Shown here piece after piece: positions 4,158-19,637 of a DNA stretch of 20,124 nucleotides. Both the position numbers and the translations under genes were made by a program. The notes under the pieces are model-generated. The model was not told where the DNA came from. It saw only the letters and a list, made by a program, of their open reading frames with translations, and ran no database searches. Each line of letters opens with the position of its first letter. Within the stretch, counting starts at the first letter, position 1. Source of the DNA: a virus; the IMG/VR virus record IMGVR_UViG_3300029923_000125, positions 1-20,124 of that record. One strand, written 5' to 3'.

Positions 4158-5714
4158 CTATATTCCTAATTTTCTACGGTCTAAAAACTTAATCTGTCCA
4201 TCTGATAATGATTGCACTAATTGTGCCAACATCGCAATACTATCAACACTATCGTCATGTTTATTATTACCCATTTGTGTCCATTTTAGCATATCTTTCA
4301 TAAATTGGGAATATTGACTATTCGGTGAATATTTACTAGGATGCTTGAACACGAAATGCTTCACAACATAATCAGCATATGTTATAATCTTTACTTGCTT
4401 GTTATTGCTACTGAAGAAAGTCCTAATACTGGTTCTACCACCTTTGGCTTTAATTAGTTCATCCAAATCCTCGGCATAGTAGTTGCCACCATTGTTCACC
4501 TCTACATCAGCACGAACTACTTTATGCTCTACCCATTTATTAGCAACCATTGGTCTAGTTATATCTGGAAGGGCATTACTATAAGTCACATCATCAATAT
4601 ATACAGTATCACCATATACATATCCAATAGGAGCAGACACAAAATCCTTACCCATGTTCTTACTATCGCATATCGCAACGATTGAATCGGCTGGTTCTTC
4701 TGGAAGGTCAAAGAAATACTGCAAGTCCTCTTTATGGTACAATAATCCTTCTCGTTCTATAGGCTCTTGTTTATACAATGCTCCAAAACTGGCTTCATCC
4801 ATTGTAGTTTCTAAGTCCTTGTAATAATCAGTTCCAAAACCACCTAAGAAGTCGAATTGGCTTTCCTCGTTCTCGTCATAACACGATACATTAATAACCT
4901 TGCATCGAGGATTATCCTCATGTGCAGTTCCAAGTTTAGTGATTACATCATGGACAGACCATCTTGTAGCCAAATGTACTTCCTTGCATTTATCCTTCTT
5001 TCTCTGTTTACAGTTAACTGTATACATCTGCCATAATTTATCAAGTCTAGTAATTGAAAGTGCTTCTTCAATACCAGACACCAAGTCATCGCAATACAAA
5101 TACTTACCAGCTTCACATCTACCAGTCATTGAACCACCAATAGGAACAAAGGTTATAGATGGATATCTCTTTGCCACCTTTAACCAGATTTCTTCCCTTT
5201 TTGCGTTCTGTGATACAAGTGGAGCATCTGGGAATATCTCATTGTATCGTGGGTTCTGAATTATCTCCATGACTCCCATATAAAAGGAAGTTGTTATACT
5301 ATCTGAATAGGAAGTTGCCATTTCAGTATGCTCTGGGTACTTTCCTATAATCCAAGACAAAAACCGTATACCAGTAGTGGTCTTACCAGTTCTTGGAGGA
5401 AGTGAAATTAATAATACATCATACTTATCGTAAGTTTCCATATCATTAAAAGCTTCAAACATTTCAGCTAGGTGCTTTTTCCTGTGGTGATAAAATGCTT
5501 TAGTTGGTGACGAATGGTCTTCATCCAATTCTAGATATTTGTTATAAGAAACAAAATCATATGGAGCAACCATTCTCAATACTTCCACATAGAGGTTATA
5601 TAATTCTACAAGGTCAGAAGGGGCAACACCCTCTCTTGAAAGTTCATCTTCAAGATTAGGTATTACCACCTTCACCAATTCCTCTACTTTAGTTAATTCT
5701 AACCCATTGTCCAT
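4158..5714 (-). CDS. terL: Phage terminase large subunit (ATPase-nuclease)
   Basis: 518 codons. It packages DNA by ATP-driven translocation through the portal and cuts concatemers. Walker A is SLPPRTGKTTT (about residues 105-113). Walker B is YLYCDDL (about 205-211), ending in Asp-Asp. LATRWSVHDVI (about 248-258) follows as the likely coupling motif. The C-terminal RNase H-like nuclease begins at IVAICDSK with Asp350, and the last acidic cluster is KHDDSVDSIAMLAQL near 487-500. QEPIEREGLLYHKEDL links the domains, as in T4 gp17-type and related terminases. The ATG at 5714 overlaps the upstream 80-codon gene by 16 bases, with GAAGG nine bases before it. The small subunit is not adjacent but lies 4.2 kb away at 9935-10456. 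Confidence 0.95.
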   Translation of the reverse strand: MDNGLELTKVEELVKVVIPNLEDELSREGVAPSDLVELYNLYVEVLRMVAPYDFVSYNKYLELDEDHSSPTKAFYHHRKKHLAEMFEAFNDMETYDKYDVLLISLPPRTGKTTTGIRFLSWIIGKYPEHTEMATSYSDSITTSFYMGVMEIIQNPRYNEIFPDAPLVSQNAKREEIWLKVAKRYPSITFVPIGGSMTGRCEAGKYLYCDDLVSGIEEALSITRLDKLWQMYTVNCKQRKKDKCKEVHLATRWSVHDVITKLGTAHEDNPRCKVINVSCYDENEESQFDFLGGFGTDYYKDLETTMDEASFGALYKQEPIEREGLLYHKEDLQYFFDLPEEPADSIVAICDSKNMGKDFVSAPIGYVYGDTVYIDDVTYSNALPDITRPMVANKWVEHKVVRADVEVNNGGNYYAEDLDELIKAKGGRTSIRTFFSSNNKQVKIITYADYVVKHFVFKHPSKYSPNSQYSQFMKDMLKWTQMGNNKHDDSVDSIAMLAQLVQSLSDGQIKFLDRRKLGI

Positions 5715-6804: not shown

Positions 6805-6833
6805 TTGACATTACCTATCCTATATGGTATAAT
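6805..6833 (+). promoter_or_regulatory. Perfect consensus sigma-A promoter for the plus-strand operon
   Basis: TTGACA (6805-6810), a 17-base spacer ending in TGG, and TATAAT (6828-6833): a full match to the vegetative consensus with an extended -10. The first ATG with a ribosome site is only 20 bases downstream of the -10, so the leader is very short. It is the only recognisable plus-strand promoter in the window. Confidence 0.9.
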
Positions 6834-6852: not shown

Positions 6853-7002
6853 ATGGAAGATAAACATAAAAAAACATTAGCATCAATATGTAGAGTTCTA
6901 GGATTGATGTTAATGGATAATAGGATACCAATAGAAATTAGAACCACATATGCACAATTAGTAGAATCAATTAAGGAGGAGGAAGATAAAAATGCCAAAT
7001 AA
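6853..7002 (+). CDS. Unknown 49-residue protein, first gene of the only plus-strand operon
   Basis: 49 codons from the ATG at 6853, preceded by GGAGGTGAGG and a perfect promoter. The protein is mostly helical: a basic N-terminus (MEDKHKKTLASICRVLGLML), a central MDNRIPIEIRTTYAQLVESI and a charged tail KEEEDKNAK. I recognise no family. It overlaps the next gene by 11 bases, whose ribosome site (AAGGAGGAGG) lies within its last codons. Because it runs against all other genes and sits at the early/late boundary, a regulatory or host-takeover role is possible, but that is inference from position only. Confidence 0.8.
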   Translation: MEDKHKKTLASICRVLGLMLMDNRIPIEIRTTYAQLVESIKEEEDKNAK

Positions 7003-7168
7003 AACACCATACACAATAATGGAAATCATAAACACATTCTTTGAGGAGGAAGTAATTTTCTGGGATGGGGAATACTTTTACTCCACAATGCACTCAACTG
7101 AAATCACATATGAGCGAGGACATAAATGGGCATGGAATATAATGACTGGAGGTGTAATGGTAGTTTAA
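6992..7168 (+). CDS. Unknown 58-residue protein, second gene of the plus-strand operon
   Basis: 58 codons, from the ATG at 6992 to TAA at 7168. AAGGAGGAGG lies about ten bases upstream, inside the previous gene, which it overlaps by 11 bases. The protein starts MPNKTPYTIMEIINTFFEEE and is rich in aromatics (FWDGEYFYS, HKWAWNIM), with no Cys and no membrane segment. I recognise no family. It is an acidic, compact-looking protein of the type often found among phage accessory genes. It ends before a 440-base non-coding stretch where transcription from the minus-strand cassette would converge on it. Confidence 0.75.
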   Translation: MPNKTPYTIMEIINTFFEEEVIFWDGEYFYSTMHSTEITYERGHKWAWNIMTGGVMVV

Positions 7169-7334
7169 CTTGCAACTACTAATTTGCTACTAATTCATAA
7201 CCCTACAACCATTGATATAACTGGCTTTGCTAACTTGTCGGTAACTTGCAAAAACTGTTATAGAATTTTCCGAGAATTTTTTGAGGTCACTAAAACTGTT
7301 CAGAAAATTTAGAAGTTGGTAATGGGACTGATTA

Positions 7335-7451
7335 GTCATTGTCAGAATATTCTGAATAGTGGGAGGGGTATGAATATTCACGCAATTCACCATTGTTTAA
7401 ACAATTAAAACAAATCAAACAATTCGTACAAACGAAACAATTAAAATAATT
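7335..7451 (-). repeat. Array A: 13 degenerate 9-base units
   Basis: Read on the minus strand, this stretch splits without phase slips into thirteen 9-base units such as AATTGTTTC, AATTGTTTG, AATTGTTTA, GAATATTCA and GAATATTCT, with an approximate consensus of RAWTRTTYN. The same unit forms two arrays at 9404-9610. Units vary at several positions, so this is an old or selected array, not a fresh tandem duplication. In one frame it stays open and would encode repeating Asn-Cys-Phe/Glu-Tyr-Ser triplets, but no start or ribosome site supports translation. Confidence 0.75.
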
Positions 7452-7468
7452 AATAATATTATGAATAG

Positions 7469-7481
7469 TCAGATTAGTGTG
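7469..7481 (+). repeat. 13-base inverted repeat, left copy
   Basis: TCAGATTAGTGTG here is the exact reverse complement of 9538-9550. After two mismatched bases, TTGTG also matches, giving 18 of 20 bases. It lies immediately to the right of array A, whereas the partner lies at the junction of the two halves of array B, so the pair brackets the accessory cassette. Confidence 0.7.
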
Positions 7482-9009: not shown

Positions 9010-9222
9010 TTATTTCACCTCCTTTTCTGTTAGTGTGAAGAATACGGTATCTACTGTTTGGAACTTATAAGTCAACTGCTGTCTTTTTTTATCCAGTAAA
9101 GCTATTGACTTATTAGCGACTCTTAAAAACATGAACTGCTCGGACGTGTCATTGTCTATTTTGTCAAATGATACCAAAACCTCCATGTTACCTTGTTTCA
9201 GTACTAATTCAAATCTTTTCAT
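9010..9222 (-). CDS. Unknown 70-residue protein, first gene of the accessory cassette
   Basis: 70 codons. AGGTGG nine bases before the ATG at 9222 sets the start. It begins MKRFELVLKQGNMEVLVSFD and continues with IALLDKKRQQLTYKFQTVDT; an alternating hydrophobic pattern suggests a small beta-sheet protein with a basic centre. No Cys and no membrane segment. I recognise no family. Its promoter abuts the DnaA boxes at 9315-9371, so transcription of this cassette and any replication initiation there could influence each other. Confidence 0.75.
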   Translation of the reverse strand: MKRFELVLKQGNMEVLVSFDKIDNDTSEQFMFLRVANKSIALLDKKRQQLTYKFQTVDTVFFTLTEKEVK

Positions 9223-9250: not shown

Positions 9251-9271
9251 AGGTTACCGTTTTCCTAACCT
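9251..9271. promoter_or_regulatory. Inverted repeat in the leader of the cassette transcript
   Basis: AGGTTA and TAACCT form a perfect 6-base inverted repeat separated by nine bases, lying just downstream of the -10 at 9280-9285, where it would overlap the start of the transcript. It could be an operator or a weak RNA hairpin. Confidence 0.4.
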
Positions 9272-9279
9272 CTAAATAT

Positions 9280-9308
9280 AGTATAACATCCATAGTATAT
9301 AATGTCAA
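9280..9308 (-). promoter_or_regulatory. Sigma-A promoter, TTGACA-17-TATACT, for the accessory cassette
   Basis: On the minus strand: TTGACA (9308-9303), a 17-base spacer ending TGT (extended -10), and TATACT (9285-9280). A second TATACT lies within the spacer. The -35 is seven bases from the first DnaA box. Confidence 0.85.
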
Positions 9309-9314
9309 CATATT

Positions 9315-9371
9315 TTATCCACAGATTTATGATACTTATCCACAGAGTTATCCACAGGGTAGTTATCCAAT
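9315..9371 (+). other. Three perfect DnaA boxes plus one degenerate box
   Basis: TTATCCACA occurs at 9315-9323, 9336-9344 and 9348-9356, all in the same orientation, with TTATCCAAT at 9363-9371. TTATCCACA is the established Firmicute/E. coli DnaA box. Start-to-start spacings are 21, 12 and 15 bases. Confidence 0.8.
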
Positions 9372-9403
9372 CCAAAACCTACCTCCAACAACACAATTCG
9401 ATA

Positions 9404-9538
9404 TATTGTTTGAATTGTATGAACTATTCGAATTATTGGAAAAAACACGAACGTTCGTACCATTCCGAACATTCACAATATTCTGAATTATTTCATTTGT
9501 TCTATTTGTTTGAATTGTTTGAACATTTCGCACAACCC
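9404..9538 (+). repeat. Array B1: 15 degenerate 9-base units
   Basis: On the plus strand, fifteen consecutive 9-base units without phase slip, e.g. AATTGTATG, AACTATTCG, GAACATTCA, CAATATTCT, GAATTGTTT and GAACATTTC. Units match the minus-strand array A. There are no stops in the frame of the repeat, but there is no start or ribosome site either. Confidence 0.78.
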
Positions 9539-9550
9539 ACACTAATCTGA
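9538..9550 (-). repeat. 13-base inverted repeat, right copy
   Basis: The minus strand reads TCAGATTAGTGTG, identical to 7469-7481 on the plus strand. It sits exactly at the junction where array B changes orientation. Confidence 0.7.
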
Positions 9551-9610
9551 ATTGTCTGAAAATTCAAAACATTCACAATATTCAGAAGATTCACAATTTT
9601 CGAAACATTC
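9548..9610 (-). repeat. Array B2: 7 degenerate 9-base units, opposite orientation
   Basis: On the minus strand: GAATGTTTC, GAAAATTGT, GAATCTTCT, GAATATTGT, GAATGTTTT, GAATTTTCA and GACAATTCA. These are the same unit as B1 but inverted, so B1 and B2 together form a large imperfect inverted arrangement centred near 9544. Confidence 0.75.
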
Positions 9611-9630
9611 GCACATCCAGTCATAGACAT

Positions 9631-9702
9631 ATAGGGTTTGAAAGTAAAAACCCATAGAGTTTGAAAGTAAACTTTCACATAAACCTATAGAGTTTGAAAG
9701 TA
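9631..9702 (+). repeat. Three 16-base direct repeats (iteron-like)
   Basis: ATAGRGTTTGAAAGTA occurs at 9631-9646, 9654-9669 and 9687-9702; the only difference is one G/A. The second copy runs into an inverted repeat, GAAAGT-AA-ACTTTC (9663-9676). Start-to-start spacings are 23 and 33 bases. They could be initiator-binding iterons or a repressor operator set. Confidence 0.75.
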
Positions 9703-9903
9703 GGTCTAACGGAGAATGATTATTTATGCGATTTAGAGCCATTCTAAGCGACTTTACCCCCTTAGTGAACAAAGTATACGTTGAACACATTTCCCTATGC
9801 TCTCCGTTGAGCAAATCAAAATATCAAGTCTGGGAATCAGCCTATAGCCCCATCGTAAAAATGCCTATTTTGACCACTCTACCCCTATTATTTCTGGGCA
9901 TAG

Positions 9904-9926
9904 AAAAAGCACCCATTTCTGAGTGC
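9904..9926 (-). terminator. Intrinsic terminator of the terminase small-subunit gene
   Basis: On the minus strand GCACTC-AGAAAT-GGGTGC (six pairs including one G-U; 9926-9909) is followed by TTTTT (9908-9904), starting nine bases after the stop codon at 9935. Confidence 0.7.
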
Positions 9927-9934
9927 AATTTACA

Positions 9935-10456
9935 TTATTTAGGCTTATCTAGTCCAAGTTGTGCAATTCTGTCTTGTACTTCATCAGTCTGCATCTGCTC
10001 ATTTGTCGCAACTACATCCAATCTGGAAGTTTCAACATGACCATGAGATGATTTTAGCAAGAATATGTTTGCAGTTGGGTATTTCTCGGCTCTGCCCACA
10101 TAAGACATTTCAATTAATGATGTTGCCCATCTTATAAGGTCAGATTTGAAATCCGTAGATTCTTTTTCCCAAACCCATAAAGTTTGTTTCGTAACCCCTA
10201 ACCATAGTGATAGCCCCACTTTAGCTGGTTTGACTTCATTATCGAAACAATATTCAAAAAAGGCATTAATTTCCATTTTCAAAGTTTCTGGAGTCCAAAG
10301 GCCTTTATAATTCTCTCTGTTTTGAAATCCTCTGTTCCATATAGGCATTAAGCCTTTCATTGTTCCTAAATCATCTTTATGTGTATCTGGATAATTTGGT
10401 GGCATATTTTGTATACCAGCAGTTTCTGGCGAAGTATGAATTCCTTTATTTGCCAA
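9935..10456 (-). CDS. terS: Terminase small subunit, GP3 DNA-packaging-protein-like
   Basis: 173 codons. TTG start at 10456 with AAGGAG nine bases upstream. The central part matches the pattern of the GP3 DNA-packaging/terminase small-subunit family as I recall it: TPETLKMEINAFFEYCFD, then GLSLWLGVTKQTLWVWEKES (a helix-turn-helix-like DNA-binding region, about residues 83-102), then DLIRWATSLIEMSY and ANIFLLKSSHGHVETSRLDV. The small subunit recognises the packaging site and regulates TerL. Direct repeats of GTCGAAAAT lie 40-65 bases upstream of the start and may be regulatory. It has its own terminator and is separated from terL by the origin-like block and the accessory cassette. Confidence 0.85.
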   Translation of the reverse strand: MANKGIHTSPETAGIQNMPPNYPDTHKDDLGTMKGLMPIWNRGFQNRENYKGLWTPETLKMEINAFFEYCFDNEVKPAKVGLSLWLGVTKQTLWVWEKESTDFKSDLIRWATSLIEMSYVGRAEKYPTANIFLLKSSHGHVETSRLDVVATNEQMQTDEVQDRIAQLGLDKPK

Positions 10457-10823: not shown

Positions 10824-11153
10824 TTAATTGTAATCTGTAACTTTATCATACACTCGGTAATTTGCACCTTTTATAGTTTTTACCTTTGACACATATCCAA
10901 ACGATGTCATTTCAATTCCAAACTTTGTCCTTTTGAATGGTCTTTTGTGTTTTACATGACAATACTCTACATATTCATTATACACATCTATAATAACTCT
11001 GTCAAGTATTTTAGGTGAAGTTCCCAACCACCAATTTACAGTAGTTGGTTTTAACTTTTCACATTCACACCTAAACCAATAATTCATAGCTTTTCGTTTA
11101 CCTTTTATGTCAGATACCTCATTTAGCATGACCTTTAATCTATTAGTATCCAC
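10824..11153 (-). CDS. Unknown 109-residue basic protein, winged-helix-like C-terminus
   Basis: 109 codons from a GTG at 11153, with GAGGG nine bases upstream and only four bases after the previous stop. A TTG six codons earlier is possible but has no ribosome site. The protein contains MNYWFRCECEKLKPTTVNWW followed by LGTSPKILDRVI and, near the C-terminus, KRPFKRTKFGIEMTSFGYVS and NYRVYDK. The last part resembles the small winged-helix tail seen at the ends of phage D5-type primases, which suggests DNA binding; this is tentative. The last codons overlap a cluster of TTACA motifs. It is the final gene of the operon starting at 12187. Confidence 0.72.
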   Translation of the reverse strand: MDTNRLKVMLNEVSDIKGKRKAMNYWFRCECEKLKPTTVNWWLGTSPKILDRVIIDVYNEYVEYCHVKHKRPFKRTKFGIEMTSFGYVSKVKTIKGANYRVYDKVTDYN

Positions 11154-11157
11154 TATC

Positions 11158-11478
11158 TCACACCCTCGCAAAATTTATAATATATTCATCGGGACTATGT
11201 TTCAAACCATCTATCTCTCTTTTACCACCTTCAAAGGAAGTTACATCTATTTTGTCAGTGTATGAGCCATCCGAATTGATAGGTAAGTTTACTGCATTAC
11301 CACCACTCTGTATTGCCCTCCAGACAATCCTCATAACATCCTGTGCTATCTCTGGAGTATCATATCTACCAACTGTGTTCCACTGTTCCCCACTGAATAC
11401 CCTAAGCGAACATTCATTGACAAATACACCAGAACATTCGTGTATTGCATTACCTTCCTGTGATTTAACCCAAATCAT
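11158..11478 (-). CDS. Small conserved-type phage protein (MW(V/I)xSQ family), function unknown
   Basis: 106 codons starting at the ATG at 11478, directly after the stop of the previous gene. The start MIWVKSQEGNAI, then VFVNECSLRVFSG and VGRYDTPEIAQDVMRIVWRA, follows the layout of a very common Firmicute phage protein (a 'MWIRSQD...' start, a beta-rich middle, 'G.Y.s.e.A..vl..i' near the end). Its function is unknown. The C-terminal third is specific to this copy and hydrophilic. It is co-transcribed with the adjacent small genes. Confidence 0.78.
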   Translation of the reverse strand: MIWVKSQEGNAIHECSGVFVNECSLRVFSGEQWNTVGRYDTPEIAQDVMRIVWRAIQSGGNAVNLPINSDGSYTDKIDVTSFEGGKREIDGLKHSPDEYIINFARV

Positions 11479-19305: not shown

Positions 19306-19334
19306 ATTATACCACATTATAAGCCTAATGTCAA
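19306..19334 (-). promoter_or_regulatory. Sigma-A promoter of the redoxin-nrdD operon, inside the mazF-like 3' end
   Basis: On the minus strand: TTGACA (19334-19329), a 17-base spacer ending GTGG, and TATAAT (19311-19306). The -35 is codons of the MazF-like gene. ATTACAGAAGTTAAATTT follows, sharing the TTACAGA motif of the 10.6-10.85 kb region. Confidence 0.88.
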
Positions 19335-19637
19335 CCTTATTGTTTCAGATATATTAATCATAGTATAATCACTTACCGTAGCAATATAACCCTTTACTCT
19401 TTTCTTATCAACTGTTCTTATCTGCTCACATAATGCTATTGATGGTTTAATAAGACCATCTACTGGGGCATGAGTTATCGTGAAACTCTTGGTAGCAGAC
19501 GTTATTGGAACAATTGTTACTGTAGGCGAGGTTGCATTACCTAAATTGGCTTGTATTATTAAGCATGGTCTACATCTCCTCTGTTCACTACCTACTGTTT
19601 CCCCTAAGTCTACCCAATATATCTCTGCTCTTTTCAT
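19317..19637 (-). CDS. MazF/PemK-family mRNA interferase toxin
   Basis: 106 codons. AAAGGAG about 13 bases before the ATG at 19637. MKRAEIYWVDLGETVGSEQR, with the CRPCLIIQ that follows, is the N-terminal strand-loop of MazF/PemK proteins (GSEQ and RP motifs). TVTIVPITSATK holds the conserved Thr/Ser region, and PSIALCEQIRTVDKKRV the second conserved block (SxALxEQIRTIDKxR). These are ribosome-independent mRNA endoribonucleases. No MazE-like antitoxin gene is seen beside it: upstream is a 46-codon gene of different appearance, downstream the redoxin. It has its own consensus promoter. In a phage this could reprogramme host mRNA or be a stand-alone regulator. Confidence 0.9.
   Translation of the reverse strand: MKRAEIYWVDLGETVGSEQRRCRPCLIIQANLGNATSPTVTIVPITSATKSFTITHAPVDGLIKPSIALCEQIRTVDKKRVKGYIATVSDYTMINISETIRLTLGL

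Follow-up and report, generated by a model that had tools for sequence, protein, structure and literature searches.

The terS spacer and its gene neighbourhood

The window, by which we mean the whole stretch of 20,124 bases that was analysed, is a virus record identical to part of a 52,555-base phage contig. Both terminase genes are read from the minus strand, with terS, coding for the small subunit, at 9935–10456 (PF16677, phrog_606) and terL, coding for the large subunit, at 4158–5714 (phrog_38). Other genes of the phage code for an SPP1-like portal and an anaerobic ribonucleotide reductase, and the larger contig adds a DNA polymerase (phrog_1252), a D5-type primase-helicase (phrog_864, PF19263), and annealing and single-stranded-DNA-binding proteins. 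The Pox_D5 profile at the C-terminus of the primase-helicase scores below its cut-off. On the contig these replication genes lie about 33 kb from the region described here; should the circle be closed by the join that contig G003 shows, the distance would shrink to about 12 kb. The primase shares 41% identity with its counterpart in Paenibacillus larvae phages, a hint of a host in the Bacillota.

Several further features of the phage were recorded. A MazF/PemK-like toxin gene (PF02452) lies at 19317–19637, and two small plus-strand genes at 6853–7168 oppose their neighbours, with a sigma70-type promoter at 6805–6833 that matches at 12 of 12 positions. Contig G001 equals contig G004 exactly over 25,180 bases and stops where the window begins (G004 25180). 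At its other end G001 carries different structural genes, and the first 353 bases of these genes are 96% like G004 25609–25961. This pattern, located at a tail-protein gene, points to swapped modules or a mixed assembly.

The block of interest (9303–9702) is flanked by terS on one side and, on the other, by small genes that run leftward. Three perfect DnaA boxes of sequence TTATCCACA occur on the plus strand at 9315–9323, at 9336–9344 (21 bases from the first) and at 9348–9356 (12 bases from the second), with a degenerate fourth box, TTATCCAAT, on the same strand at 9363–9371, 15 bases from the third. Shuffled windows contained 0.46 perfect boxes on average, and none of 500 held two perfect boxes on the same strand within 60 bases. 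A further perfect box at 2169, with a one-mismatch box 21 bases on (2169–2198), lies inside the gene at 1469–2653. The AT-rich DNA beside the cluster is among the least stable in the window (top 1.2, 1.9 and 3.4% for stretches of 50, 80 and 100 bases).

On the minus strand, a sigma70-type promoter (TTGACA-17-TATACT, 9308–9280; 11 of 12 positions, with TG preceding the second hexamer) points into the gene at 9010–9222 and onward. This first gene, also on the minus strand, codes for 70 residues without a family match. Box 1 is separated from TTGACA by six bases and occupies positions −51 to −43 from the predicted leftward transcript start; together the perfect boxes span −84 to −43.

Towards terS the boxes are followed by an array with a 9-bp period (9400–9612), the unit of which, read by eye, is near GAATATTGT. 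Its lag-9 identity is 0.603, compared with 0.289 ± 0.032 and a maximum of 0.387 in 2000 shuffles. A terminator-like hairpin on the minus strand (9446–9477) lies within this array, and its CGAACGTTCGTG is also found in the related locus L006. Three direct repeats of 25 nucleotides come next on the minus strand (9622–9646, 9645–9669 and 9678–9702), sharing the core ACTTTCAAAC on the coding strand; the second and third copies are 76% and 88% identical to the first. A non-coding spacer (9703–9934, minus strand) then leads to terS, and a second terminator-like hairpin is predicted after that gene (9909–9926, minus strand). This hairpin and the promoter at 9308–9280 set the block between two transcription units. 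All the parts listed in the initial annotation, namely three perfect boxes in one orientation, a degenerate fourth, 9-base arrays, three direct repeats and a promoter in non-coding DNA, are present. Mechanically called open reading frames do traverse the block (9302–9550, plus strand; 9542–9814, minus strand), but the array along which they run is present in some relatives and missing in others. Rfam models at gathering thresholds gave no match within the window.

What related phages keep and lose

For comparison we used 12 loci with terS, G012 being left out because its terS is too near the contig end. In eight relatives measured, TerS is 34–46% identical to that of this phage; three more were matched via a relative. 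Perfect-box clusters occur at two of the 12 loci, in this phage and in L187, and each of the remaining ten shows no more than a single box that carries one mismatch. L202 has no box cluster, although its TerS and that of L187 share 73% identity. Conservation of the boxes, which had been suggested as a check, is therefore seen in L187 and fails at ten other terS loci. Of the six contigs with a PF19263 primase, five are devoid of a triple-box cluster anywhere, the sole exception being that of this phage.

The 9-bp array is likewise kept in part, standing above shuffles 3′ of terS in six of 13 different records. Repeats of the TTTCAAAC type occur 3′ of terS at all 12 loci and within 1.2 kb of that gene lie 37 times on the coding strand and twice on the other, by a motif that was defined after the data had been seen and whose expression leaves the majority of the TTTCAAATCGG repeats in L149 and L189 undetected. 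By eye, additional CTTTAACGTGCTAAAGT-type repeats are seen in the terS spacers of L187 (6470–6640), L193 and L201. Two arrays with a 9-bp period were also noted in G014 (L236, L237) near 23662 and 25138, outside the terS spacer, and the TerL of L143 (8113–10716, contig G005) is a protein of 867 residues with what looks by eye like an intein-like insert.

Between this phage and L208, the spacer on the terS side is 82% identical (190 of 231 aligned bases), compared with 64% for terS and 68% for the box side. Identity between the spacers of L149 and L189 is 88% over 649 bases. Those of L187 and L202 reach 62% over 140 bases, with no conservation peak beside terS. The terS-facing part of the block, that is, the spacer and the oriented TTTCAAAC repeats, is thus most likely a packaging signal recognised by TerS. 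Since L187 and L202 are only 62% identical, the case for such a signal beside terS depends on the repeats together with a single pair, this phage and L208. That packaging alone accounts for the whole block, with boxes that are incidental or relics, is quite improbable. The peak of conservation with L208 beside terS would suit this explanation, but intact boxes at regular spacings, situated beyond the array in faster-diverging DNA, speak against it, as does the lack of a peak on the terS side in L187 and L202.

DnaA boxes here and in other viral contigs

A scan of viral_contigs returned at least 120 stretches with a triple-box cluster, this phage's included. Spacings were collected from 57 flank-similarity groups of 78 clusters among the 80 loci listed, a non-random sample that leaves out our own phage and one unscored locus. 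Of these 114 spacings, 90 equal 11, 12 or 21 bases, three classes that were named after the counts had been seen. The boxes of this phage are spaced by 21 and 12 bases and those of L187 by 11 and 12. These values are near one or two turns of DNA, which we interpret as helical phasing of the boxes; a test of six trial periods gave 0.69, 0.70 and 0.68 at 9.5, 10 and 10.5 and 0.58 at 12, and does not single out the helical repeat. The C-terminal domain of DnaA (PF08299) was found in none of the 50 records scanned out of the 80 loci listed, on which ground contamination by host origins was rejected as a source of the viral clusters. A link between clusters and terminases was also considered and dropped: phrog_38, phrog_2 and phrog_51 had three members each among 91 flanking proteins (six of the nine named), and 90 control open reading frames from the same loci gave three for phrog_2 and two for phrog_38 (25 families listed per set). 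Among the matches listed, a literature search turned up no work that follows DnaA-box arrays through different phages; in one paper on a phage genome, an origin with DnaA boxes is predicted by Ori-Finder (PMC11512268).

Regularly spaced boxes are therefore recurrent in phages, and host DnaA probably binds them. For the block itself, binding is likely because its spacings of 21 and 12 bases fall into the classes that dominate other viral triple-box clusters. It is also probable in that the boxes are non-random, non-coding, spaced like viral clusters, and situated beside AT-rich DNA of low stability. Rather tentatively, and with more doubt than assurance, we suggest that short phased DnaA-box arrays may be a recurrent device, gained independently by unrelated phages, which would capture host DnaA, whether to assist replication, for regulation or as a decoy. 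In the present case, the terS spacer would have acquired or shed one such array, with the replication genes retained.

As DnaA has an established role as a transcription factor (PMC12371093), the boxes could make the adjacent promoter responsive to this protein. DnaA on the boxes would then activate or repress the small-gene operon located between terS and terL and couple it to the host DnaA level. The position of box 1 next to the −35 element is consistent with this proposal, and so is L208, which has the second hexamer and the leader in common with this phage but TTGTGT as its first hexamer and no boxes. The boxes of L187 also lie upstream of a promoter-like site in the same relative orientation, at a greater distance (first bases at −128 to −105), but that promoter reads towards terS, and in the next 900 bases the sole ATG-started open reading frame of at least 36 residues begins 332 bases on. 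Moreover, a promoter of this kind is found on that side in only five of the 80 clusters listed, this phage's included, and was discarded as a general rule. On balance we regard a DnaA-responsive promoter as possible, although somewhat unlikely.

Titration of DnaA is a less probable alternative, and we consider it unlikely. A high phage copy number would multiply the boxes, pull DnaA off the host origin and halt new rounds of host replication, much as titration by plasmid-borne boxes is known (PMC5835720). Viral clusters reach 11 boxes among the loci listed, perfect boxes are gained and lost independently of the replication genes, and the absence of the DnaA C-terminal domain from the 50 records also fits a decoy, but three boxes per genome are few.

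The initial annotation had read the block as a sign of replication dependent on host DnaA or of a phage-plasmid lifestyle, an interpretation that finds partial support. Of the first idea, the likely binding of DnaA survives, and dependence on DnaA does not fare well. The relatives speak against it, in that five of the six PF19263 contigs and L202 have no triple-box cluster. In addition, the 200 bases around the boxes contain no run of at least three DnaA-trios ([TA]A[GA]) on either strand. Analysis of GC skew, which had been proposed as a check, showed no switch. AT skew at fourfold sites shifts near terS in this phage and in G17, not in G9, and may merely separate gene modules.

The phage-plasmid idea found no footing in the gene content. 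Profiles for tyrosine integrase (PF00589), ParA (PF13614) and Rep_3 (PF01051) matched in none of the 13 contigs of the group, which may be incomplete, and the positive control for Rep_3 matched in two of 14. On the basis of the PF00589-type integrase profile, and with the same proviso on contig completeness, we take the phage to be non-integrating. A TerL pattern scan of genome_contigs (84,980 genomes) returned 223 stretches, none of them a relative. Matches of TerL in plasmids were distant (20 records, all under 60%, with the ten best of the 20 at 21–25% identity).

A proposed composite control region and its counterparts

A second array with a 9-bp period, absent from the initial annotation, lies about 2 kb away at 7331–7480 and is inverted relative to the first. 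It overlaps a second non-coding element (7230–7425, minus strand) with a C-rich motif, which by eye is also present in L188, L202 and L187. A model of this element was built from the same four loci that it found, and no other record passed the inclusion threshold; a scan of viral_contigs with the E2 motif returned one contig, already known.

Upstream of terS, the gene at 10824–11171 (minus strand) codes for a protein of 115 residues that resembles the C-terminal part of the primase-helicase, with 31% identity to the phage's own primase C-terminus over 67 residues. The protein is present in this phage, G016 and G006. Its predicted fold is a winged helix (mean pLDDT 78), and it is a possible candidate for a binder of the arrays. 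VIA-align lists the origin-binding domain of P4 among its moderate matches to the model (1ka8, Z 5.8, rmsd 2.6, 65 aligned residues). Against this assignment, RFX (7.6) and Orc1/Cdc6 winged helices score equal to or above 1ka8, with all Z values under 8, Foldseek returned no match at E 0.001 or better, and G005 has an array and no detected gene for the small protein. A sequence search of the PDB gave a single row at chance level.

Taken together, we favour the view that the terS spacer is a composite cis-acting control region with a lineage-specific, accessory module for host DnaA, serving as an auxiliary DnaA-assisted start of replication. We give this reading a probability of roughly one in three. 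On one side of the block is the terS unit and on the other the next leftward operon, and the phage brings its own DNA polymerase and D5-type primase-helicase. Besides the packaging signal proposed above, the 9-bp arrays would offer multiple binding sites to a DNA-binding protein of the phage; plausible candidates are the winged helix of the primase-helicase and the separate small protein that resembles it. The DnaA boxes would be a lineage-specific addition, bound cooperatively by host DnaA, which may help to open the AT-rich DNA at 9260–9314 and so assist an auxiliary start of phage replication. The low stability of the DNA beside the boxes supports such a helper role at an origin. The sequence data establish the sites, the statistics on them, how far relatives conserve them and the similarity of the small protein to the primase, from which the binding events, the role in packaging and the function as an origin are inferred. 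The presence of boxes at two of 12 terS loci, the lack of DnaA-trios and of a GC-skew switch within the scope given above, and the distant replication genes argue against it. Our confidence in this composite reading, as in packaging alone, was lowered because L187 and L202 do not have a conserved spacer on the terS side. Since relatives with the same replication enzymes are mostly without a cluster, the boxes look less like the essential origin of the phage than like an extra site with a helper or sensor function.

If DnaA does act here, the phage, despite coding for a polymerase and primase-helicase of its own, would still read or use the replication clock of its host, through a site that appears and disappears between relatives. 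L187 (boxes) and L202 (none), and this phage (boxes) and L208 (none), are pairs in which the function of such boxes in phages could be tested directly. The question is a general one, given that regularly spaced clusters also occur in many other viral contigs.

The block can be compared with several known systems. F ori2 is an iteron-plasmid origin with DnaA boxes. Origins of this type, such as RK2 oriV and P1, are described as combining three components, namely repeats, DnaA boxes and AT-rich DNA (PMC4980987), and a repeat array, DnaA boxes and an AT-rich stretch are found together here. The repeats of the phage have 9 bp instead of 17–22 bp, and the order of parts is unlike that described for RK2. 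In addition, no Rep_3 match was found in the contigs of the group and the boxes are not conserved among relatives.

Phage P4 has two separated short-repeat arrays, ori and crr, and a D5-type primase-helicase, the alpha protein. The present phage likewise has two separated arrays and a primase-helicase of this type, but its arrays vary or vanish while the primase stays, and binding to them is putative.

The SPP1 origins oriL and oriR combine direct repeats with AT-rich DNA, and SPP1 pac has direct repeats at terS (PMC6316719, PMC4737164); both combinations recur here. Replication from the SPP1 origins relies on gp38 together with a DnaB-type helicase, and the word DnaA is absent from the main text of the SPP1 paper. 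Unlike in pac, the repeats of this phage sit 3′ of terS. Finally, although the block differs from the basal unwinding system of bacterial oriC in its lack of detectable DnaA-trios, it shares with that system consensus TTATCCACA boxes that are adjacent to one another and lie beside AT-rich DNA (PMC10201434).
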